From Clytia hemisphaerica (taxonomy: Eukaryota; Cnidaria; Hydrozoa; Leptothecata; Clytiidae), in the NCBI GenBank assembly GCA_902728285.1, contig CACVBU010001154.1, positions 1,555,538 to 1,619,537 on the forward strand: 64,000 nt of DNA, read 5' to 3'. Position 1 is the first letter of the stretch; every line of letters begins with the position of its first letter. The notes beneath the pieces were generated by a model. The model did not search any database. It was not told the DNA's origin and saw nothing but the letters and a program-made list of their open reading frames with translations. The position numbers and the translations under genes are program-made. Below, piece by piece: positions 2,924-61,487 of the stretch.

Positions 2924-3657
2924 CATGTGCTACAAGTGAATAGTATCAAGGACAATAAGGACTGTATATGGAATGGTATCATGCACATGAGCATGCGCAA
3001 ACATGCTATAATGTGCTTCTGCTCAATGCAGTGGTAACGTATGACGTAGCCTAAGTATAGCAAAAGATTAACAATTACTTTGGACGATTATAATTAATCC
3101 AGCGGTTTAAGGTTTTTTTCCTTGGTAGAGGCTTTCCGCTCGAGGTGAAGGAGATTACAACGTAGCCTTTGTACGTTTATTTAACGCTAAGATGAAATTC
3201 CTTATGCATCTTATAACGTCAACAGTAAAAAATAATACAGTTCTTTGAAAGCTATAAATAATGACTTCAAAGAAGTTCTGAGAAAAACTATAAACCTAAA
3301 CGTGTTAAAACATGTTGTCAGTAATGTTACCGCGAACGTTTTTAATCTTAACATCTAGAGTGCGTTTGTGAGATCAACGTGAGAGATATTATGGTAGCAA
3401 GGGAAATCTCAGACAAACCAGCTAATTCTTGATATTTCCCAATAACCTCTCCAGCTTGATAAATAGTATACTTAAAAAAATGTGAATGTCCATAAATTTT
3501 CGAGAAGAAACTTGAAAATGATTGATCTATATCGGATTTGCCAGGAAAAGGAATTCGAACAAGAGGTTGTCCTCAACGAAGCATCAATGGAAATAACATG
3601 GATCTCTAGCTAGATTCGAATCAGGAAATTGCAGGAAATAACAAGCTAGATGCTGAA
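2924..3657. other. Non-coding stretch
   Basis: I see nothing here beyond AT-rich sequence. There is no ORF with protein-like composition and no obvious repeat boundary. Confidence 0.4.
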
Positions 3658-5734
3658 TGGACCTACCTGATGATGAAAGTTAGATAGCAATGCAAGGAGA
3701 AAAATGAAAAAAAAATCAGTCAGAAAGCATAACGCAAGAAATTCATCATTGATTGATGGTAGGGGGAGAGGAAAGGGTTGTAGGGAAAAAAATAAATAGA
3801 AAGTTCTGGTCGCAAAAATCAGTTTTATTGACAATTGAATCATGCTTGATGGTGAGCATTGTTATCAATAATGTTTTTGTGTGAAAAACATAGAAAATAT
3901 AAGGAAAGAATCCAATGAAAATCTGCAAAAACGGCGATTTCCGGAATTTTCAACCGGAAAAAAAATTTTCTCAAAAATCGAACTCGGCCATGTTTTGAGC
4001 ATTGCGAATACGCATCTTTCTGCAAAAAATCAGAAAAAACTAAAAATAAAAATTCGAGAAAATGTCAAAAAACCGGTTTTCCGGCATATTTCCGGCATTT
4101 TCGGCCGGAAAAAAAAGTTTTTCGAAAATCGGGGGCTCCGTCACATTAGGGTATTGGTCATATTGCGTCAGTGTGCAAAATTTCATAAAAAAATATAAAG
4201 TACAGCTCGAGAAATTCAAGAAATACTGTCTTTCCGGCGAAAATGGGTTGTTTCCAGCGACTTTTAAAATAGTTTCTGGCTTCAAAAATCAATTTTATTG
4301 AAAATTGAAACATGCTTGATGGTGGGCATTGCTATTAATAATGTTTTTCAATGAAAAAACAGGATTTGAATGAAAAAACAACCAATTATAAGGAAAAAGT
4401 CCAATGAAAATCTAGAAAAACGGCGATTTCCGGCATATTTCAGGCATTTTCGACCATTTTCTCAAAAATCGGTCTCGGCCATGTTTTGGGCATTGTTAAT
4501 ACGCATCTTTGAGCAAAAAATCAGAAAAAACTAATGATAAAATCTCGAGAAAATGCCAAAAAAACAGTTTTTCCGGTATATTTCCGGCATTTTCGGCCGG
4601 AAATGAATTTTTTTCGAAAATCGGGCTTCGTCACAATTTAGGTATTGACATTTTGCATCAGTGTGCAAAATTTCATGAAAAAATAGAAGTACAGCTCAAG
4701 AAATTCAAGAAATACCGTTTTTCCGGCGAAAATCGGCTGTTCCGACGATTTTTAGAAAGTTCCGGCTTCAAAAATCAGATTTATTGACAATTGAATCATG
4801 CTTGACCGTGGACATTGCTATTAATAATGTTTTTGTGTGAAAAAACAACGAAATATAAGGAAAAAGTCTGATGAAAATCTGCAAAAACGGCGATTTCCGG
4901 TATATTTCCGGCATTTTCGACCGGTAAAGATTTTTTCTCAAAAATCGGACTCAGCCAAGTTTTGGGCATTGCTAATACGCATCTATGTGCAAAAAATCAG
5001 AAAAAACTAATGATGAAATCTTGAGAAAATGCCAAAAAACCGGTTTTTCCGGCATATTTCCGGCATTTTCGGCCGGAAAAGTACGTTAATTGAAAATCAG
5101 GCTCTGTCATATTTTAGGTATTGCCATTTTGCATCAGTGTGCAAAATTTCATGAAAAAATATAAAGTACAGCTCGAGAAATTCAAGAAATACCGTTTTTT
5201 CCGGCGAAAATAGGCTGTTCCGGCGATTTTTAGAAAGTTCCGGCTTCAAAAATCACTTTTATTGACAATTAAACCATGCTTGATGGTGGGCATTGCTATC
5301 AATAATGTTTTTGTGTGAAAAAACAACGAAATATAAGGAAAAAGTCCGATGAAAATCTGCAAAAACGGCGATTTCCGGGATATTTCCGGCATTTTCAGCC
5401 GGAATAGAATTTTTCTCAAAAATCGGACTAGACCATGTTTTAGACATTGTTAATACGCATTTTTGTGCAAAAAATCAGAAAAAACTAATGATGAAATCTC
5501 GAGAAAATGCCAAAAAACCGGTTTTTCCGGCATATTTCCGGCATTTTCGGCCGGAAATGAATTTTTTTCGAAAATCGGGCTCCGTCACATTTTGGGCATT
5601 ACCATTTTGCATCTTTGTGCCAAAAATTAGGAAAAACTAATGAGCCAATCCCAAGAAAAGCTAGTAACGAACGGACGAACGAACGAACGAACGAACAGAG
5701 GTTAATTTATAGGACCTCCACCGGGGTAGGTCCA
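3658..5734. mobile_element. TIR element carrying four ~480-bp tandem repeats
   Basis: The boundaries are short inverted repeats, TGGACCTACC at 3658 and GGTAGGTCCA ending at 5734. Inside, a unit starting with the motif TTTATTGACAATTGAA and rich in TTTCCGGCATTTTCGGCCGG repeats about four times, with starts near 3813, 4284, 4769 and 5249 (period 471-485 bp). An (ACGA)n microsatellite lies just inside the right end at about 5672-5697. A shorter inverted copy with only about two units is at 50028-51127. The apparent ORFs here are repeats of one non-coding unit and differ between units. Superfamily unknown; it is non-autonomous as seen. Confidence 0.75.
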
Positions 5735-6137
5735 AAAATGTGATTTTTAATATGTCGAATCTACTGTGCCACCCTATAACCTTTTGCCGTAATGACGAAT
5801 ATTAATGATAATCGACTCGAGGAAAGGAATGTCAACACAACAGCCTCGCAAGCTCGGTCGTTACTTGACATCGGGAAATATTTCTCAGCACAGCCAAAAG
5901 GCCAAAAGCGGGACCGGATAAGCTGTTCCGGAAAAATGAGCTGTACTTTGAAATGAGGTCAGTCTTTTATAAACTGAACTTTGACCTATGTCGAGAACAG
6001 TGTCGGTTTGGAAATTTCCCCCAAACTTGCTTTACTGGTTTTTCGCGACAAAAAGGAATATTTACTCAGTCGTAAGTATTTAACATCTCAACTCAACTTA
6101 GCAAACACAAACACAAATCATAAGCCTCAAATTACTA

Positions 6138-6363
6138 CCGTAAGTTAATGTAATATCGACATCCCTCTTCTATTTTCGACATCCTTTTTAGAGATAGGAA
6201 TAATATGAAGGTCGGAATCGCTGATGGAAAGTATCTTTTTTGCTTAGCGATCAGGGAGGAAAAAATCTTTTGTCTACCAGTGATCCCGACTTTCCTACTC
6301 TTCCTATCTCTAAAAAGGGTGTCGAAATTAGAAGAGGGATGTCGACATTAGACGAACTTACGG
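6138..6363. mobile_element. TA-flanked MITE with ~65-bp inverted repeats (CCGTAAGTT family)
   Basis: A 226-bp element. The left arm begins CCGTAAGTTAATGTAATATC and the right arm ends with its inverse, finishing AACTTACGG. TA occurs on both sides (6136-6137 and 6364-6365). The arms match, with a few substitutions, through the motif TTTTTAGAGATAGGAA. The ORF reading across it has no protein character. Confidence 0.8.
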
Positions 6364-6829
6364 TATGGAGTTGGCGTGAATCGAAACTTTTGTTTACCAG
6401 TTATATCCATCAGGGTTTTCCCCAATTTATGTTTTTGAAACATATCCAATGTCAATTTCATAAGCAGGTAAACAAAAAGAGCCATTGAAGGTTAAAAAAT
6501 GTCAATAGCTCTTAAGGGAATTGTAAGTTATTGATTTTCTTGGATCTATTGTGAAAGAAGGAATTAAAATGTCACAACGAAACCGGAATATGATATAACA
6601 TGTTATGACTGATTTTGACTTTTGGATAATGTTTTGTTTGACTTATTTTGAAGACATTAGAAGACAAAACTTACAGTCAAAAATGCTTCTGAATACTAAA
6701 CAAACTTATTGGACAATGCCAAAGACAAAAGAATGACTCTTTTTATACAAGTTGCATGTCCTGAAAAACGATACTTTTGTTTTGATCTTGCAGACCTACT
6801 CTAGGGTTAACCATCATCCCGCTAATTAA

Positions 6830-7050
6830 TTTTTCGAAAATTTTCCACCCAGGACATTCTTATTCCAACCACCCCCCCCCGCTTATTAATTTTTTGGAAA
6901 ATGTTTTTAAAAGTTCCCTTTTTAGTCCCAATTATGCTGTATTAGCCTCCTTTTCAAAAATTTTCCACGCAGGACATTTTTATTCCAAACCCCCCTCCCC
7001 CCGCTTATTAAGTTTTGAGAATTTTTTCAACCCCTCCCCCCCCGGCTATT
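6830..7050. repeat. C-rich tandem repeat
   Basis: Units of roughly 120 bp alternate poly-C runs with CGCTTATTAATTTTTTGGAAAA and TTTTCCACGCAGGACATT. Related C/G-rich blocks occur at 13400-13450, 15590-15830, 18090-18190 and, inverted, at 59090-59360. Confidence 0.6.
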
Positions 7051-7117
7051 ATGTACCCGAGAGTATGTTGTTTTGCAGCAAGCTGGACATTAAGCGTTGA
7101 ATCTGCCTGAATACATA

Positions 7118-7410
7118 CACGCTTTTAAAAGAATGGCGAATGGCGTCTTCCTATTTAATCATGGATATTCTTAACTTCTTGTGAAAAATCACCCTGAAGT
7201 ATTAGGCCCAAATCTAGCAAACAATGTACCTCAAGTAAAAATTTGGCATTTTTCTGAAACTATTTAACATTGCTTTGACAATTTACAAGCAAACTGCTCT
7301 AAAAATGATATTCTTAGGCTCCATTGCCAGATTCCATGATGGTGGTATTTTTGTTTTTTGACCAATTTTATCATGAATATTTTTTTCAAAAGTATATTCT
7401 TATAAAATCA
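7118..7410. mobile_element. CACGC(T)n MITE, decayed copy 2
   Basis: Begins CACGCTTTTAAAAGAATGG after a TA and ends near TATTCTTATAAAATC. The interior ATTCTTA and ATCATGGATATTC motifs match the copies at 2638 and 48128. Confidence 0.6.
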
Positions 7411-40300: not shown

Positions 40301-43300
40301 AAGTGACGACTCTGAAACATATACCTAGCTCATGCCCAACAGATAAACTTATGAAGCATTTTAAATCACACTTCAACCCTCCTGATCCTTCCTCGACAAG
40401 GACCCCTGAAGAACTTGATTCGAATATCCCAGAATTTGTCGAAAAACGCATATCGCAGACTGTCCTCATAAACGATCACCACCAACCCTGAACGAGATCG
40501 AACTTTATCTTAAAAAGCTTAAATCCAATAAAGCATCTAATGACATTGATGCTGAGTTTCTCAAAAAGCTGAACCACCCAATTATGTTAGAAGTATTGCA
40601 TCGCATGACCTTAAACCTTTGGTAAAACCTGGACGTACCCCACGCTTGGGGTAACTCTCGACTCCGTACTCTTTGGAAAGGTAAAGGATCCAAAAACGAC
40701 CCTACAAAGTACCGTGGACTTAGCATCGGATCAACTGTTTGTAAGTTGGTCATCAATCTCATTCTGGGTCGCCTTCGTCCTTGGTACGAAGCCCAGCTTT
40801 CAGAGGAGCAAAATGGTTTTCGCCAAGATAGGGGTACCATCGATGGTATCTATACCATAAAACGAGTTCAACAGATCACTCACCGCAAGAAGCAACCTCT
40901 TTTTCTCCTCTTTGTGGATCTCACCGCGGCTTTTGGCCACATCCCCAGAAAATGATTATTTGACTCTATCAAACTACGTTTCTCTGATAATCGTTGTCCC
41001 CAAATCCTCAACATCCTTGAAAAGTTGTACTCAGACACAAGTCTAACATTTGAAAAAGAGACATTTCCGACTACATCAGGCGTACGTCAGGGTGGTCCTG
41101 AAAGTCCATTTCTGTTCAACCTCTTCATCGACTTCGTCATGCGCGTCTTCCTCGAAAAGTCAAATAATATCCAATTCTTTCAACAAAAATACCGTATCAG
41201 CCCACGAAGTATTTCCAGGGATGATCGTTACGTGTTGAGAGAACAAGAAATCGATCTCAATGGTTCATCTCCCCTACCATGGTGCGGTTATGCGGACGAT
41301 CTAGTTTTGTTTCTAACCAGTCTGGACAGTTTACAGAATGCTACCAATATTCTGAACACTGTATTTAAAAACTTTGGCCTCACAATCAACTCATCCAAGA
41401 CCGAATCGATGATAATCAATAACGATGTAACAAATGAATATCCAAAATCCATAGTCTCTATTGATGGAACTCCACTCAACAACGTTCAAAAATTCAAATA
41501 TCTTGGCTGTTATGTCAATTACCTTGAACCGAACCGAACTCAGGTGATGCCAAAATTAACCATAGAATTCAAATGGCTTCAGCCAAGTTCAGTGAACTTT
41601 CAAATCTCTTGCAAAATTTTCAGATCAATCTGAAAACTCGTGTTAAATTTCTCGACAGTTTTGTTCGTAGTCGATTGACATATGCATGTCAAAATTGGAA
41701 CACAACTCAGAACCAACTCGATCGCATTGATGCAACATATCGCACGTTTTTGAGGCGTATGGTTCGTAATGGTATGAAGCATGTTAACGAAAAGGAGAAT
41801 GATTTTCGCATGGTTTTGAGCAATGTTCGTTTACATGAAATATGTGGTACGAAAGATGTTAGTGTTTTTATTAGAAATCAGCAACGTAGTTATTTGGCAC
41901 ATATTATTCGCATGAATGTTCACAGAAATGTGAAAAAGCTCACGTTCAATGATGATATATATACAAGGAGAGGGCGTCCCGTTAAGTCGTTGGTTGATTT
42001 AATTATTGAAAATGAAAATGTCACTCTTGATAGATTTTGCAATCTTGCGTTGCAAAGAAAACGTTAATGGAAATGTGATGGATTAATATTATTTAATATT
42101 ATTTATGAGAGACTGGGTTACCCAAGTTTTTATTCTATTTATTTGACGAGAGTTCGGTGTTATATATATATTTGACACTGGCTAGGACAGCATTATCACG
42201 AACATACTTTTTGACTCGATTTATGAACCGTGTATCCTTTACGACATAAGATTCTCAGAACAATTTCCCCAAATGAGTATACCGTAGATAACAGAGGGTA
42301 ATATGCCTTGAAAATATATTGTTGATAAGGTAGGGTGTGGCATGTTTCTCATTTGATAAAGTTTCTTCAGTTTACTACTAAAAGATTTGGTAATTTTTCA
42401 AACATGCTCCTCCCATTCCAACTTGTCATCAATAGTATTTCCCAGACATTTGGTGGAGCTAACAATCTCAACAATTGCTCTACATAGTGTAATGTTTTTG
42501 TATGGACCAATGAAACGATTTCTTGACATGACCAAGATTTTGCATTTATCAGGGTGAATCGTTAAGGAGTTTCGTTTGGCATAACTCTCTAATTGACAAG
42601 CACTGTTTGGGAGACTGTAAAAAACAGCATCAGCAGTTGGTCCAGTGGTATAGGTTGTTGAGTCATCTGCAAGCTGGTCTAAATCACTTTCAATACAATC
42701 ACTCGTATCGTTTACGTTGATGGAAAAACTTGGTGGTCCAATTAGAGATCCTTGCGGAACACCATATTCGACCGTCTCAAGGTTGGACTCGACTCCATTT
42801 AGTGATGTGAAGAGCAAGCCAGGTGTTCAGCAACTTTCTAGGGATTGACAATAGCGATATTGGTCTATAGTTTGAGCAGTCTGATTTGACACCTTTTTTG
42901 TATACTGGTGTTACTTTAGATGCTTTCCACTTTGCTAGGAAAGTACCTGTGTTTAAGCTTTGCTTGACGACGTAATGAAAACTATTGATTGATCCATCAG
43001 TATGAAGGCAAATATCTTCGGCTGTATATGAGAGTCCTTTGACTTTCCTTTAAACTTTTTGACTAGTGACCAGAACGATTTCGAAGAGTCGCTTTGGATG
43101 AATTTGCTCTCCCAGTATTTTGCTTTTTCTGATCGAATTAAACTGGTACATCTATTCATTGCTTTCCTGTACTCCTTCCACTCTTTTGAATGTTTTGGGG
43201 TAGTTCTTGCAATGTTCGAGAGATTAAACCTTTGGCTTAGCTGTTACCTCACTTCACCATTCATCCATGGCTGATTTTCTGTTCTTTCTTTAACCTTCCT

Positions 43301-52307: not shown

Positions 52308-53423
52308 TTATAAATTGTCTAATTCTTCATCTGTCGTCCAGTCGTCAGAAGATATGGACAGAAGAGAAGACGTTGTTTTGGTCTTTGTCCTAGATTTTCG
52401 AACTAGGCGAAGGTTTGTTCTAGGGCTTCCTCTTACATGCCAAACGAAATCGTCATTTTTTGAATTCATTTTTTTCGCCTTTTGGCACATATCTTTAATA
52501 ATTTTTCTTTCGTTGATGGTGAAGTCGTCTGTGATGCTAAAGCCACCAATTTCATTGAATCGTTTCAGCTTATGCAGATTTTGCATTATCCGTTCTTTTT
52601 CCTCTATACTTTTTAAGATCAACTTGATTGGACGCCAATGTAGCCCTTTTTGGTTTTGTCCAATGCGATGATGGTGGGACGGTTTGATATCTTTAACGCC
52701 AATGTTACCAAGTATACCTTCAATATCTATTTTGTCTCGTTCCTGTTGTTCCTCTTTGTTGTCTACCTCTAATTCCACCATTCCATGTATAATAATATTT
52801 CGTTTTCTTGATTCGATGCCGGGGGCCCGGGATTCGATGTCTCTTTCTTCATTCTTGTTTTCTTGTTGGTGTTCTCTCACTGCTGATTTGAAATTATCCT
52901 TGTGTTTCTTAGTTATTTCAGCGTATGTTTTTTCCGATGTTTTCTCTATGTAATTCGTCGTTTGCTTTATTTCTTCCTTTATAATCTGCTTGGTTTTTAT
53001 TTCAAAGTCAGCCATCTTATTGGTTAAGATGTTTTCGATATCGTTCTTAAGGCTGCGGTTCTTGGCTAGCTGGTTTTTGAGCTTTTTAATGACGTCGTCC
53101 TTCTTCTCAATCTCCCTCTGCATCATATGATACGAGTTCTCACCTATTTTACTCATTAGAGATCGTGTTATCCGCACGCAATTCTGACATAGATATTGTT
53201 CGTTATAAGTGTTGGCAAAAATTTGCAGCTGATAAAGCGGTAATTGTGTGCACTCGTAGTGTACCATGCGGTGGCATTTTCGGCATTTTAGACGGTTTTG
53301 GTCATCGTCATCTGAGCAGGAGGTGGGAGTGCATGTTTGGTTTTGTTTAGCTTCTTCAAATGGTTGTTTTTCTTGCTTTTTGTCGGTTTTTTCGTTCATG
53401 TTTTTGATTTTGCTAAATTTCAA
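52308..53423 (-). CDS. LINE-type ORF1 protein: PHD-like finger, coiled coil, RNA-binding core
   Basis: An intact 371-codon gene. Residues 31-82 form a C4HC3-type PHD-like finger (Cys31, 36, 47, 50, His55, Cys58, 79, 82; core CRKCHRMVHYEC, LCQNC). About 95-200 is a Lys/Glu-rich predicted coiled coil. Residues 207-275 (RNIIIHGMVE, HHRIGQ, RPIKLIL) resemble the RRM-like core of LINE ORF1p. About 295-340 is a C-terminal domain ending HVRGSPRTNLRL. ORF1 proteins of CR1/L2-group elements bind element RNA and act as chaperones. Here no reverse transcriptase follows: a hairpin and an A/T-rich stretch come directly after the stop. It may be an ORF1-only non-autonomous element or a domesticated gene. 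Two decayed relatives occur in the window. Confidence 0.85.
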   Translation of the reverse strand: MKFSKIKNMNEKTDKKQEKQPFEEAKQNQTCTPTSCSDDDDQNRLKCRKCHRMVHYECTQLPLYQLQIFANTYNEQYLCQNCVRITRSLMSKIGENSYHMMQREIEKKDDVIKKLKNQLAKNRSLKNDIENILTNKMADFEIKTKQIIKEEIKQTTNYIEKTSEKTYAEITKKHKDNFKSAVREHQQENKNEERDIESRAPGIESRKRNIIIHGMVELEVDNKEEQQERDKIDIEGILGNIGVKDIKPSHHHRIGQNQKGLHWRPIKLILKSIEEKERIMQNLHKLKRFNEIGGFSITDDFTINERKIIKDMCQKAKKMNSKNDDFVWHVRGSPRTNLRLVRKSRTKTKTTSSLLSISSDDWTTDEELDNL

Positions 53424-53886
53424 CCATTTTTGAAGAACTGCACAAAATGCGTGTTAACCTATTGATTTTGGTAATACAACGTTTTTATTTTAATTGGATG
53501 TTCTAAAGTATGCACCCATTTTAGCAGACGCAAGATATCATGTTAGTCGATTTGTTTATTATTTACGAAAGTTGATCCAAGATTTTAGTAATATCCCCCC
53601 CCCCTTGCTGTCACTTTATCTTTTAAGTATACATCGCAATATCTCTGCTTTTATGTTGTTTTTGTTTCTGACTAAGGTATATGATGACTTTTATAGAGAA
53701 AAAACTGGAGGAAGTGCATCACTTGAATTTGTGTTACAGCTTGTTTCTGTTATACATTAGGTAATAGAAACAGGAATTTTAATTAACGTGGTTTAGCTAT
53801 AATTGTATTTGATAGATTTTGTATTTTCTTTCAGCTAATACATTAATAACATGTAGGTGACTAGAGACTAAAAACTCCAAGAAACA
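53424..53886. other. Gap between ORF1 and the HEPN/NB-ARC gene (likely shared upstream region)
   Basis: The two intact ORFs are divergent across 463 bp. A TTTTCTTTCAG acceptor-like site at ~53835 could end a 5'UTR intron of the plus-strand gene. ORF 53494-53760 contains a poly-C tract and no domain; I do not call it. Confidence 0.4.
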
Positions 53887-56427
53887 ATGTTATTGACGGA
53901 GAAAGTTGAGCAAAAGCTGACACGATTAAAACACAAAATCGAGGAGATCGAACGTAAAATATTTCATGGTAAATTCTCAAAGGATCCAAAGACACTGTAC
54001 AATCAGTTACTGGTTCACCAGAAGAAAATCAAAGATCTTCACAAAAAGAAGAAAGTACTTAACCAGCAACAATATGACTTACTGTTTCCTGCCAACAAAG
54101 AAACCGATTCAAACCTATTTGATATTACTCTGTTGAATGTTCTATTGCGTAGTGTTTGCGGATTCAAGCTAAATGGACTAGACTGGAATAATGATCCTCC
54201 AGCTCATGATCGCTCTTTAGTAGCTAATCTGATTCGATTGAAACTTGCCAGGAACCGTATCGTTCATCTAGGAATGGCTGCAACGAACAATACTTTCTAT
54301 AAACAAATCTACAAATATGTTAAACAAGCCCTACTTGATTTAGGTTGCACCCCGAACGAGCTCAAAGATCTTGTGCCACGCCCTGTGCGTTTCAAATTCA
54401 CGCCTTCAATCGCCAAATTTGCCAACAGAGACGTTGATATCCATGCACTACATTGCAACGTCACCAATAGTAAAAACTCCAATAACGTTTTTGGTATTTG
54501 TCTATCGGGGTTATCGGGAATCGGAAAAACACAACTTGTTAAACGATATTTTGAGCAACATGCCACGTACTTTGAACATAATATTGTCTGGATAGACGCT
54601 TCAGATCTCGAAGAATCCTTTAAACTGTTGGCGCATTCTCTACATTTGACTATAACCGACCGACACGGTGTCCTTAAACCGATCCAAGCTATCATCACCC
54701 TGATACACCAGTATTTCTGGGAAGACCAAGTTCTTTTTGTTTTCGATAATTTCACATTCCAAACTGATCATAAACAATCACCAAATCCTCTCAGTTTTAT
54801 CCCAACTTATCCGGAGAGTATCTCCATAATCACAACTCAACGGGAAGCAACTAATAATTGCTTAGTCAATATGCGCTTGGACCCGTTATCTCCACAAAGT
54901 GCATTAGATTACGTGTCCGATTTAATTGACCCGAACTCGAATGCTAAACACGAAATCAAAGAGATTTTGGAAAAGTTAGGCTATCATCCGTTGGCAATAC
55001 AACAATTTATCACTTACACACAAGAAAGTAGATTTCTGCCATCTCACTATCTGCAACTTTTGAAAGAGAAACCAGAGTTTCTTTTTGTTAAAGAAGCCGA
55101 AAGCAGTGTAATTGATTATATCAGAATCACGGTGGACAAAGTCAAAAGTATGGACAACCAGCTACCATACCAGATCCTACAGATTGCCAGATTCCTTAAT
55201 TGTAAGGAAATCAAACGTGGTTTTTTCCTACATTTTTTCAATGAAGATGAGAGCGTACTCGAAGTACAAACCATCGCAACGATCAATGAAGCTTTAAAGA
55301 TATTAGAACGATTAGCATTGATTGATATTTCACTCGGCAGAATTGCCAGCTCTGACAATGAAGTTATCACCATTCATTCCCTGGTTCAACAAACCATATC
55401 ATTGATGCTACAATCTGATCATGAAGAATCAGCAATCTTTAAAAGTATTCTTGATAAGATTTACCATCACAACTCGAAATGTGACAACGATACAACGTTT
55501 GTGGATCCACTCGGCTACAAATTCTTCCACCCACAGCTAATGTACTTGTTCCAAAGAACTGATAAACATCTCATTGAATTATTTGATCGAATCTCAATTC
55601 AAAACATACCAGCTATTTTCAACATCTTCTACCATTGCGAAAAAATTTATGCTGCTGGACAAATATTCAATAGAATCGAAAAACGAATTGAAAATGACAT
55701 TGAATCAGACAATACGTCATGTTGTCAATTTGCTGCTAGCAAACCAAAAACCTACCTATTGAAACTTCAATCTTACATAGGTCAGGTGTATTATTTCAGA
55801 GGAAAATATTGGGGAGCGTATCTCATTCTTGATGATGTTCGTAAGAAACAAAAAGCCCTTCTTGGGTTAAGACATAAAGACTATCTAGTAACCGTCCTAT
55901 ATTATGTACATTGTTTTCAATACATAGACAGACACGAGGAAGGATTTGAAATTGCCAAAAAACTATCTAAAATTAACAGTCAAGTCAACGGACCTAACCA
56001 TCCACACACTCTTGTCTCAAAACGCTGTATGGTTATTAAAGAGTCTTTTATTGAAAATATTTCAGCTGGGGTATTGGAAATCTTTGATAGCCTCCTCATG
56101 CAGCAGATACAAGTTCACGGTGAAAGGCATAAACAAGTCTTTGCAACTCGCCACGAAATAGCCAAACGTCAAATGAAAAACCGTGTGCAAGCCTTAGAAA
56201 CATTACTACAAGATTTGATTCTAACTTTCCCAGATTACATCGATTCTAATGACTTCATTCTAAGAACGAAATACAATCTTGGTAAAGAGCATTTAGGTCG
56301 TGGACGATATGATAAAGCTCTGGAGATCTTCGATGATGTTTATAATGGCTGGCTTTTGAAGTATGGGGAATTTAATGAAGATGTTAGAGAAATCGATGGT
56401 TTTATCAGATATTTAAAGAATTTATAA
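53887..56427 (+). CDS. HEPN + NB-ARC + TPR STAND ATPase, immune-receptor-like
   Basis: 846 residues in a single exon. Residues 1-65 are a basic predicted coiled coil. About 75-155 is a DZIP3-type HEPN domain (DITLLNVLLRSVCGFKLNGL; Rx4H motif Arg122-His127 in RNRIVH). About 180-375 is NB-ARC: P-loop GLSGIGKT 208-215, Walker B VLFVFDN 282-288, a TTQRE motif 316-320 and a GLPLA-like LGYHPLAIQ 364-372. About 400-510 is a winged helix with IHSLVQQ in the MHD position. About 620-846 holds kinesin-light-chain-like TPRs (YYFRGKYWGAYLILDD, LGKEHLGRGRYDKALEIF). STAND proteins with this order sense a ligand through the repeats, oligomerise on ATP and activate the N-terminal effector. HEPN effectors are often RNases; that activity is an inference here. 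The start is the first ATG after stops, and the frame is intact. An ATTAAA sits right after the stop. Confidence 0.92.
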   Translation: MLLTEKVEQKLTRLKHKIEEIERKIFHGKFSKDPKTLYNQLLVHQKKIKDLHKKKKVLNQQQYDLLFPANKETDSNLFDITLLNVLLRSVCGFKLNGLDWNNDPPAHDRSLVANLIRLKLARNRIVHLGMAATNNTFYKQIYKYVKQALLDLGCTPNELKDLVPRPVRFKFTPSIAKFANRDVDIHALHCNVTNSKNSNNVFGICLSGLSGIGKTQLVKRYFEQHATYFEHNIVWIDASDLEESFKLLAHSLHLTITDRHGVLKPIQAIITLIHQYFWEDQVLFVFDNFTFQTDHKQSPNPLSFIPTYPESISIITTQREATNNCLVNMRLDPLSPQSALDYVSDLIDPNSNAKHEIKEILEKLGYHPLAIQQFITYTQESRFLPSHYLQLLKEKPEFLFVKEAESSVIDYIRITVDKVKSMDNQLPYQILQIARFLNCKEIKRGFFLHFFNEDESVLEVQTIATINEALKILERLALIDISLGRIASSDNEVITIHSLVQQTISLMLQSDHEESAIFKSILDKIYHHNSKCDNDTTFVDPLGYKFFHPQLMYLFQRTDKHLIELFDRISIQNIPAIFNIFYHCEKIYAAGQIFNRIEKRIENDIESDNTSCCQFAASKPKTYLLKLQSYIGQVYYFRGKYWGAYLILDDVRKKQKALLGLRHKDYLVTVLYYVHCFQYIDRHEEGFEIAKKLSKINSQVNGPNHPHTLVSKRCMVIKESFIENISAGVLEIFDSLLMQQIQVHGERHKQVFATRHEIAKRQMKNRVQALETLLQDLILTFPDYIDSNDFILRTKYNLGKEHLGRGRYDKALEIFDDVYNGWLLKYGEFNEDVREIDGFIRYLKNL

Positions 56428-58189: not shown

Positions 58190-61100
58190 CTCCAGAGCAA
58201 TTGCACCTAAGAAAATCTGTAAGTGGGATCATTGATGTCTTGGATTTTTTTCTTTTTTAGATATGTTGTGGGGTTTCATGGGTGGAACAAAATTCCAAAA
58301 TTTGAGCCTCAGAGCTCAAGCCGTTCCCGAGATATCGCATTTTGAAGTTTCAAAAATTTTGTCTAAAATACAGACCGGTAATTTACAGACCAGAATTCCA
58401 GATTGCTATAACTCCTTATTGGTAAGTCCAAATGACATGAAATTTTGCACAGATGCACAAGACCATAAACATTTTCTAAAAACAAAAACAAAACAAAAAA
58501 TTTTGTTTCAAAATGGCGGATATCTGAAGCCGAAGTTTTGAACTGCTTGAAAATACCGGTTGGATTTGATTCTCAGTTATTCCCGGCCCGAGATTCCAAA
58601 TTGAATTTTTTTTTCAGATCCTGAAAGATCAATCCTTTAACTACCAAATATCAAAAATCTGTCGTGGAGAATTCATTTTTGGCTCAATAAATCAATTTTA
58701 AAGATGACATTTATTTTCCGAAAATTCCCTAGCAACGCCCTAGCAACAAGGCTTTAACAGACTACACCATGTACCAGAAGGCTCAAAAATTGGTTTTAAT
58801 GATTGATAGTCCATTTCTGGACATTTGTGATCCTAGACTGATCAAATCATTAGAGGATATACCTCTATATGCAAAAGATTATTCATAATTTTCACTGCCT
58901 GCGATGATATTAAGAGCCATTTTTTTTAGGAGTCTTCAGGGTGTGATACCTCATCCTCTTGGATTTTGATGAAATTTTTACCAAATGATCTATCACACAA
59001 GAAAATAAGACCCTGAAAATTTCACCTTGATATCTCACGTAGTTTTGAAGATACAACGTCTCAAAGATAGGCTACTCTTAGGTGCCAAATAAACGGGGGG
59101 GGTTCGAATAAACGGGGGGGTTGGAAAATTTTTGAAATTTCAATAAACGGGGGGGACCTAATTGCCGGGGGGGTTGGAAATTGTACTTATGAAAACCCAA
59201 AAATAAGGTAAATATAGGCTAAAATCAGGCTTTTTGGAGCAAAATAAGGGGACTTCTTTTAGCCAAGTGAAAATATTCTTTAAAATTAATAAACGGGGGG
59301 GTCCTAATAAGATCCGGGGGGGGGGTTGGAAAATTTTCGAAAAATTAACAAGCGGGGGGGACCGTTTATTTGGCACCTAAGAGTACTAAGCGAAAATTGA
59401 CCCCTAAATTTCATGAACTCTGGTTCCTCAAAATTTCTAAGTCCAAGTGTCGTTATTAGCTTTAGACTGTCCAATATTTCTTGTCCAGAAGATTTAAACA
59501 TCATTGTTTGCAGCATCTCATAAAATATCACCCTAGTAATGTTGCTTAGTTATTTAAGAATCGACAAGTAAGGCTGTTAGTGTACACAAATATAGAGATA
59601 TTGGACAGTCAAGAAATATTGGACTTAGAAATTTTGCGGTAAAGGGCAAATTATTGTCAAAGTAGGATTTCTGAATGATTCTAAAAAGTTTTTGAATAGG
59701 AATTAAGTACTGCTAAACCCATTTAGTTGAAGTAACCTGCTTATATTTAAGAGTAATATTCATCAAACTGTGAAAGATTGAGGCTTTTCCTGAAAATATA
59801 GGCCCTGGAATGGTAGGAAAGGCCAATTGTCAGTCTCGCATTTTTTTACATATTCTGTACTTAAAAATAAAGAAACAGTCATAAAATGTCATCTGTTGAT
59901 GGAAATGACCTGAAATCTTTTACAGTTGTTCCCTTATTGCCAATGATTAGTTGGCTAGAGAAGATCAACCAATATTTTGACAAAAATTAACCTTTAGAGC
60001 CCTTAAGTGGGCCTGATTTAGCATTTTAAGAGGGAAAAAACAACGAAGTTAAGCAAATTTTCAATCGATCATATCTTTAAGAGACTTCAAAAACCCACTT
60101 AGATTTTTTGAGGCTATAAACTAGACCTGCTAAGGAAGACTTGCTGAAAGTTTCAAAAAAATTTGTTGTTGCCGCAAAAAGATATGCCATCTTGAATTTT
60201 GCTCCAGATCTGCCAAAATAGCAATTTTTTCGGCTATTTTTGACAGTTACGCAAATATGGAAATCCTGAAAATGTTGTTTTTGTGGCCAAAACCCACCAG
60301 TAAACCACTCCAGGTCAAAAGTTTGCTTTAAAAAAAGTCTCAAGGACTATCAGCAGCCAGCTAAAAGTGCTTCCAAACCCAGATTACGCAGTCTGAAGCC
60401 CTCTACAGGAGGCGCTAAAGATTTTCGGGGAAAGTTTTGGAGACTCAATTTGATTTTTTCTGATTCCCTACAAAAAGTTCTTGAAATCCACTATAAATCA
60501 GCTTTCTAATGTACTTGAATAAAAATTCATTGGCTTTCAAAATCTGCTCCTCACCAGAGTTCATGAAATTTATAGGGGTCAATTTTCGCTTAGTAGCCTA
60601 TCTTTGAGACGCTGTATCTTCAAAACTAAGTGAGATATCAAGGTGAAATTTTCAGGGTCTTATTTTCTTGTGTGATAGATCATTTGGTAAAAATTTCATC
60701 AAAATCCAAGAGGATGAGGTACCACACCCTGAAGACTCTTAAAAAAATGCCTCTTAATATCATCGCAGGCAGTGAAAATTATGAATTTCTTTTGCATATA
60801 GAGGAATATCCTCTAATGATTTGATTAGTCTATGATCACAACTGTCCAGAAATGGACTGTCAATCATTAAAACCAGTTTTTGAGCCTTCCAGTACATGGA
60901 GTAGCCTGTTAAAGCCTCGTTGCTAGGGCGTTGCTAGGGAATTTTCGGAAAATAAATGTCATCTTTAAAATTGATTTATTGAGCCAAAAATGAATTCTCC
61001 ACGACAGATTTTTGATATTTGGTAGTTAAAGGATTGATCTTTCAGGATCTGAAAAAAAAATTCAATTTGGAATCTCGGGCCGGGAATAACTGAGAATCAA

Positions 61101-61487
61101 ATCCAACCGGTATTTTCAAGCAGTTCAAAACTTCGGCTTCAGATATCCGCCATTTTGAAATAAAATTTTTTGTTTTGTTTTTGTTTTTAGAAAATGTTTA
61201 TGGTCTTGTGTATCTGTGCAAAATTTCATATCATTTAGACTTACCAATAAGGAGTTATAGCAATTTGGAATTCTGGTCTGTAAATTACCGGTCTGTATTT
61301 TAGACAAAATTTTTTAAACTTCAAAATGCGATATTTCGTGAACGGCTTGAGCTCTGAGGCTCAAATTTTGGAATTTTGTTCCACCCATGAAACCCCACAA
61401 CATATCTAAAAAAGAAAAAAATCCAAGACATCAATGATCCCACTTTAGATGATTCAGGGATTTTCTTAGGTGCAATTGCTCTCCAGG
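58190..61487. mobile_element. 3.3-kb foldback element with ~0.9-kb inverted arms
   Basis: The left arm (58190-59428, minus the MITE at 59075-59383) and right arm (60557-61487) are long inverted repeats with high identity. Shared segments include GAGCAATTGCACCTAAGAAA, CATGGGTGGAACAAAATTCC, TACAGACCGGTAATTTACAG, ATTCCCGGCCCGAGATTCC and ATGAACTCTGG, each mirrored on the other side. The ~1.1-kb centre (59429-60556) has no transposase. Superfamily unknown. Confidence 0.85.
59075..59383. mobile_element. TA-flanked G-rich MITE inside the left foldback arm
   Basis: CTCTTAGGTGCCAAATAAAC + GG at 59075 is mirrored by GTTTATTTGGCACCTAAGAG ending at 59383. TA lies at 59073-59074 and 59384-59385. It contains several AATAAACGGGGGG/TTGGAAAATTTT units. 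The right arm at ~60588-60600 shows the unoccupied site GGCTACTAAGCG (as reverse complement) with a single TA. Confidence 0.9.

Follow-up and report, generated by a model that had tools for sequence, protein, structure and literature searches.

The protein described here is characterized by three consecutive regions: an N-terminal HEPN domain of the DZIP3 type carrying an R-x4-H motif, a STAND ATPase of the NB-ARC type and a C-terminal region with degenerate TPRs. It is a new and very divergent member, on a solitary branch, of a known family that is large in the genome of Clytia hemisphaerica. We consider it fairly probable that it is a STAND receptor directed against infection, with the TPR region as sensor, the ATPase as switch and the HEPN domain as RNase effector. 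The architecture is known in kind, and the receptor reading is supported by our analysis, not new. The more interesting result concerns the relatives of the gene, which couple a fixed effector motif to tails that in part look to be diversifying.

The gene lies on contig C797, in the 64-kb stretch of DNA that was analysed (the window). Its coding sequence of 846 codons runs on the + strand from an ATG at 53887 to the end of the stop codon at 56427, in a frame that is open from 53872. No other open run in the window is as long: this one has 851 codons and the runner-up 381. At the base composition of the window, 846 codons would stay free of stops by chance with a probability of about 1e-27. An in-frame TAA starts 18 bases 5' of the ATG, and hence translation starts in the same exon. 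Further upstream, a pyrimidine tract followed by CAG forms a candidate 3' splice site (53817-53834, + strand; TTTTGTATTTTCTTTCAG) 52 bases 5' of the ATG, so that the exon would start at 53835. Of 25 candidate sites listed for the interval 52901-53886 it has the highest pyrimidine fraction (0.87), and from this site a 5'UTR intron is likely. The original prediction of a single exon thus holds for the coding part, which is open from 53887 to 56427, and probably does not extend to the 5'UTR. Nor is that structure the notable feature it was taken for: the relatives, too, have their coding sequence in one long exon. By eye, acceptor-like sequences are also seen in six relatives (L012, L015, L021, L022, L025 and L028), either immediately 5' of the point where the frame opens or right at it. 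Given these long exons and upstream acceptor-like sequences, the family state looks like one long coding exon, probably with a further exon upstream, and not like the outcome of retrocopying.

A tblastn search with the window protein against its own genome (G000; 417 Mb in 951 contigs) returned at least 65 matches. The search for paralogues proposed in the original prediction is answered by at least 32 loci of the same architecture, the window gene included: these match from residue 63 or earlier to residue 400 or later, and 29 of them are stop-free across the matched stretch. They are partly clustered, on contigs C8, C834, C342, C796 and C335; the window gene is the sole match on its contig in both the tblastn and the HEPN_DZIP3 scans. 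We fetched 20 of the 31 other loci, all with open frames of at least 530 aa that align with the window protein, and these form with it an alignment of 21 members, which were picked by similarity to the window protein and whose domain shares are not valid genome-wide. Identity between the window protein and the other members is 21-25%, and the window protein forms a long branch of its own (1.17 changes per site), the placement of which is unsure. Two loci are irregular: the frame of L019 opens only at about residue 17 of the window protein and has no ATG before its own residue 340, and L026 lacks the first part of the HEPN domain and ends early. Beside these genes, HEPN_DZIP3 matches are densely clustered on contigs C793 and C913, where the open frames are about 250 aa long; they apparently constitute a second HEPN family, separate from that of the HEPN-NB-ARC-TPR genes. 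Two further loci, G000:C38:3918796-3920346 and G000:C339:645137-646654, have equal HEPN scores and frames of 1141 aa each, and are perhaps haplotype copies retained in the assembly. The sole COX1 match in the genome lies on a 14,551-base contig and contains in-frame TGA; translated with NCBI table 4 (TGA Trp, ATA Ile, AGA/AGG Arg) it yields a frame of 347 residues that resembles ordinary COX1. This code occurs in cnidarians, sponges and others and is not known from bilaterian mitochondria, in keeping with a cnidarian source.

The HEPN_DZIP3 domain spans aa 34-162 (53986-54372, + strand) and is recognized by the Pfam profile PF18738 at E 1.5e-27, its score of 96.6 bits lying far above the cut-off of 27. 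The same profile is matched at E<=0.01 by 21/21 members of the similarity-picked alignment and has 115 matches in the genome, where the window gene ranks top at 100.6 bits, followed by one at 100.5. Within the domain, the R-x4-H motif RNRIVH (aa 122-127; 54250-54267, + strand) is the putative RNase active site, and its R122, N123 and H127 are invariant in all 21 members. The DZIP3-like HEPN domain with RNRIVH that had been read from the sequence alone is therefore confirmed, by a profile match far above the cut-off and by an Rx4-6H motif with invariant R, N and H. An AlphaFold model of aa 1-175 as a single chain has five helices, at a mean pLDDT of 58 and about 39 around the R122/H127 motif. 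The profile of the alignment matches 125 solved chains, and in none of the best 60 is the HEPN part the best stretch. The DZIP3-type HEPN is described as chiefly an animal family, fused in animals to TPR, NACHT, Death and other domains (PMC3710099). Its position at the N-terminus of NACHT/NB-ARC proteins is already on record from cnidarians and from oyster (PMC10236652; PMC8260672; PMC9646362). As had been predicted, the protein is devoid of a Death-fold domain: Death, CARD, DED and PYD are all absent from the 11 Pfam families listed for it at E<=1.

The STAND ATPase of the NB-ARC/AP-ATPase type occupies aa 176-514 (54412-55428, + strand), as indicated by NF040586, NB-ARC and the family profile. 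The bacterial NCBIfam model NF040586 (FxSxx_TPR) matches this region with E 9.8e-31 and 107 bits, without reaching its equivalog cut-off of 300. The NB-ARC profile scores 17.9 bits (E 0.002), below the Pfam curated cut-off of 23.5, and AAA_22 (E 0.0032) is likewise below its curated cut-off; NB-ARC is found at E<=0.01 in 16 of the 21 aligned members, a share that holds for this similarity-picked set, with a best value of 1e-12. On these profile matches we file the window protein as an NB-ARC-type STAND ATPase and not as a gathering-level NB-ARC member. All the ATPase motifs named in the original prediction were found, and their key residues are invariant in 21/21 members: the P-loop GLSGIGKT (aa 208-215; 54508-54531; G211, G213 and K214), the Walker B VLFVFDN (aa 282-288; 54730-54750; L283 and D287), HPLAI at the GLPLA position (aa 367-371; 54985-54999; H367, P368 and L369) and IHSL at the MHD position (aa 496-499; 55372-55383; H497 and S498), all on the + strand. 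T316 and Q318 are also invariant in all 21. The letters HPLAI and IHSL differ from what we take to be the textbook GLPLA and MHD motifs. Among the best 60 of the 125 solved chains, the ATPase part of the alignment profile matches the archaeal TPR sensor PH0952 (4.4e-12) and the plant NLR Roq1 (1.1e-6).

The remainder of the protein, aa 515-846 (55429-56424, + strand), is a region of degenerate TPRs. TPR_12 matches it below threshold (E 5.3e-6, 27 bits against a cut-off of 30.1), and clear TPR arrays are seen only in the relatives. Its top TPR stretch is aa 791-820; aa 625-818 are matched by two kinesin-light-chain-like TPR chains (E 0.0008 and 0.0019), and the tail of the family profile matches kinesin-light-chain and designed TPRs among the best 60 of the 125 chains. 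A tandem repeat search of the window gene found no array. The predicted domain order, HEPN followed by STAND/NB-ARC and TPR, is right in outline; its NB-ARC and TPR assignments are clear in the family and below the Pfam cut-offs in the window protein itself.

Against its relatives the window gene shows pS of 0.72-0.80, which is saturated: the relatives are too distant for its dN/dS to be measurable. For this reason its function is inferred from the family. Selection was instead estimated in eight disjoint close pairs of relatives from six subfamilies, with the first half (HEPN and ATPase) taken up to the MHD position. In this half dN/dS was 0.19-0.39, as against 0.46-0.87 in the tail; the frames ran from stop to stop, and untranslated codons may inflate the values of the first half. 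The tail exceeded the HEPN and ATPase half in 8/8 pairs, with bootstrap P<=0.05 in six of them, and the pooled values were 0.29 for the first half and 0.67 for the tail. A one-sided sign test, by hand, gives 1/256 with the pairs taken as independent, an assumption strained by two subfamilies that contribute two pairs each. Global alignment of 15 overlapping pairs gave dN/dS of 0.10-0.56 for HEPN, 0.15-0.55 for the ATPase and 0.48-1.22 for the tail; the tail was above the ATPase in 14 of them, the exception being L014/L018 (0.54 vs 0.55), and its value was below one everywhere except in L027/L028. The fast tail can reflect relaxed constraint, which is compatible with this test alone because dN/dS of the tail was <1 in all eight close pairs.

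Several relatives have tails of near-identical repeats, and these allow a closer look at where the variation falls. In L028 a 126-base unit is repeated about 30 times (91% match; positions 3510-7318 of that locus); other arrays are present in L027 (86-89%), L023 (7 copies, 92%) and L022 (3.3 copies, 89%). The open frames of L028 end inside the array, at 5321, 6386 and 7055, and the L027 array is interrupted too; the breaks in L028 may be due to assembly error, length polymorphism or a decaying gene. Five arrays were analysed with a fixed 126-base tiling, leaving out one shortened L027 unit and the L027 and L028 units outside the main open frame; a second comparison pool excluded the core TPR positions, which we took to be 4, 7, 8, 11, 20, 24, 27 and 32. 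Entropy at TPR positions 2, 5, 9, 12 and 13 was higher than at the others in L027 (P 0.0019), L023 (0.0001), L024 (0.0002) and L022 (0.0029); in L028 the excess was not significant (0.057). Without the core positions the P values were 0.0047, 0.0002, 0.0003, 0.0043 and 0.11, respectively, so variation is concentrated at these five positions in 4/5 arrays (P<0.005 for both pools). About three of the cases are independent, as L023 is closely paired with L024 and L027 with L028. At the same five positions pN exceeded pS in all five arrays, with the proviso that pS is noisy at five codons per unit; at all remaining positions pooled it did so in none, and at other exposed positions alone in L027 and L028. 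Positions 2, 5, 9, 12 and 13 are described as the most variable, ligand-contacting positions of TPRs generally (PMC1261162), and fungal NLRs with near-identical repeats are reported to vary on the same concave face, the metazoan share of such repeats being put at 0.8% (PMC4986451). Among the titles listed by searches of an open-access library on repeat diversification in NLRs (12 at most per search), none was seen to report it for animal HEPN-NB-ARC-TPR proteins, which is weak evidence of absence. The sensor tails of some relatives thus look to be under diversifying pressure, with the effector motif fixed. As a tentative extension, it is possible that the HEPN-NB-ARC-TPR repertoire is RNase-armed and that part of it renews its specificity in the mode of fungal NLRs, by TPR expansion and homogenisation with diversifying selection on ligand-facing positions: many recognition surfaces would then lead, via a fixed HEPN motif, to one RNA-cutting output.

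In STAND proteins, a ligand releases the ATPase, which is followed by nucleotide exchange and oligomerisation. By analogy, the C-terminal TPR region of the window protein would be the sensor: binding of a ligand to this tail would release the ATPase for nucleotide exchange and oligomerisation, the latter would juxtapose HEPN copies, with R122 and H127 combining into a composite RNase site, and cleavage of RNA by this site would kill or shut down the infected cell. The anatomy of the protein and the selection on its relatives fit this mechanism; every biochemical step in it, from the switch to the RNA cleavage, is one that we infer, as is the immune role. What is observed are the domains, the invariant motifs and the large family and, in the relatives, a constrained effector and switch half with a faster tail. 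Counted for a receptor are the HEPN match far above its cut-off, the R, N and H that are invariant in 21/21 members even though the others are so distant from the window protein, the invariant STAND motifs, the matches of the ATPase profile to PH0952 and Roq1, the family of at least 32 loci and, in the relatives, the faster tails and the variation at ligand-facing TPR positions. Counted against it are the sub-threshold NB-ARC and TPR matches of the window protein, a Walker B that ends in DN and an MHD position that reads IHS, the array of L028 that misses significance and the poor HEPN model. The immune-receptor reading of the original prediction gains indirect support, mostly via the relatives (a large and partly clustered family, an invariant HEPN motif, a constrained HEPN and ATPase half, a faster tail); the window gene itself has neither a close relative nor an array. 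If HEPN is indeed an RNase output, animals that lack adaptive immunity would use the sensor-switch-RNase logic proposed for bacterial HEPN-STAND proteins, and the combination of fixed effector motifs with diversifying TPR faces would offer a direct handle on what such receptors recognise.

The chief rival to the RNase-effector reading is a non-catalytic HEPN: in the same architecture, the domain would bind RNA or dimerise as an adaptor and pass the signal on to other proteins. HEPN families marked as inactive do exist (PMC3710099), and the coral paper terms the domain RNA-binding (PMC10236652); however, the retention of R, N and H in 21/21 members at 21-25% identity suits a catalytic site over a scaffold, and we regard the adaptor as rather unlikely. 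Still less probable, in our estimate, is that the window gene, as a divergent solitary member, no longer belongs to the immune repertoire and has taken on a housekeeping or regulatory task, or that it has recently begun to decay. Its long solo branch, without array or near copy, means that it may have another role, and its being the sole match on its contig, its degenerate TPRs and the 5' end of a very young retroelement copy some 430 bp before the ATG all point the same way. Against this, the frame is fully open, all residues invariant in the alignment are kept and the HEPN_DZIP3 score is the top one in the genome; had constraint been absent for long, stops would have accumulated, although recent decay still fits.

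Two origins other than descent within the family were also considered, the RNase-armed receptor remaining our preferred reading. A processed retrocopy of a spliced gene would account for the intronless coding region, and retroelement sequence lies nearby; however, the long coding exon is common to the relatives, an acceptor-like site stands upstream and no close parent is seen. The next best tblastn match shares 32% identity and likewise occupies a long open frame, and the top identity of any other match, 42%, covers a short stretch only. The retrocopy part of the non-expressed retrocopy envisaged in the original prediction is ruled against by the shared coding exon and the lack of a close parent, and we reject it as highly improbable. 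A recent gain from bacteria is not supported either, on a weak test in which plasmid matches were distant and partial: of 21 plasmid records, the 15 listed show 21-26% identity, and none of them has a match that reaches back to the HEPN motif. Searches with the alignment confirmed 0/12 stretches in prokaryote genomes (one Walker-B peptide pattern) and 0/600 in IMG/VR (two patterns), and the three phage records matched were Wolbachia phages, in the TPR part only. The ATPase may nevertheless share deep ancestry with bacterial STAND-TPR proteins.

Those bacterial proteins (NF040586, FxSxx_TPR) have, as here, a switch-type ATPase followed by TPRs, and in some bacteria HEPN is described as fused to STAND and TPR in a comparable manner (PMC3710099). 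In corals, NB-ARC proteins are reported as mostly TPR-bearing, and many NACHT/NB-ARC proteins have an N-terminal DZIP3-like HEPN like that of the window gene; the account does not state which HEPN proteins are NB-ARC-TPR, does not take up selection on the TPRs, and is compared here by description and not by sequence (PMC10236652). The HEPN-NACHT proteins of cnidarians and pearl oyster likewise have a DZIP3-type HEPN at the N-terminus of NLR-like proteins with lineage expansions, and the HEPN of pearl oyster mostly has Rx4H, as in the window gene; they differ in having NACHT in place of the NB-ARC-type ATPase, with tails that include LRR, WD40 and TPR (PMC8260672; PMC9646362). The fungal NB-ARC/NACHT-TPR NLRs share with some relatives near-identical 42-aa TPRs, which in the relatives vary at concave-face positions; the effectors named for them, in contrast, are PNP-UDP, sesB-like and PFD, and the window gene has no such array (PMC4986451).

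In the window, neither tRNAs nor Rfam families at gathering score were found, and PADLOC gave two matches only, at E 0.012-0.014, which were not counted as real. The stretch 52308-53458 on the - strand, near the receptor gene, is the 5' part of an apparent non-LTR retroelement, whose ORF1 gives a weak, below cut-off match to a PHD finger (E 0.0004). Bases 53000-53458 have at least 39 other matches in the genome at 98-100% identity and, judged by these copies, the insert is very young and the element was probably recently active. A reverse-transcriptase domain (RVT_1, E 4.2e-18) is present at 40956-41630. On the other side of the gene, an inverted repeat at 58221-61445, with 658-nt arms of 97% complementarity and further matching arms inside, is either a foldback-type mobile element or a pair of recent copies in opposite orientation.
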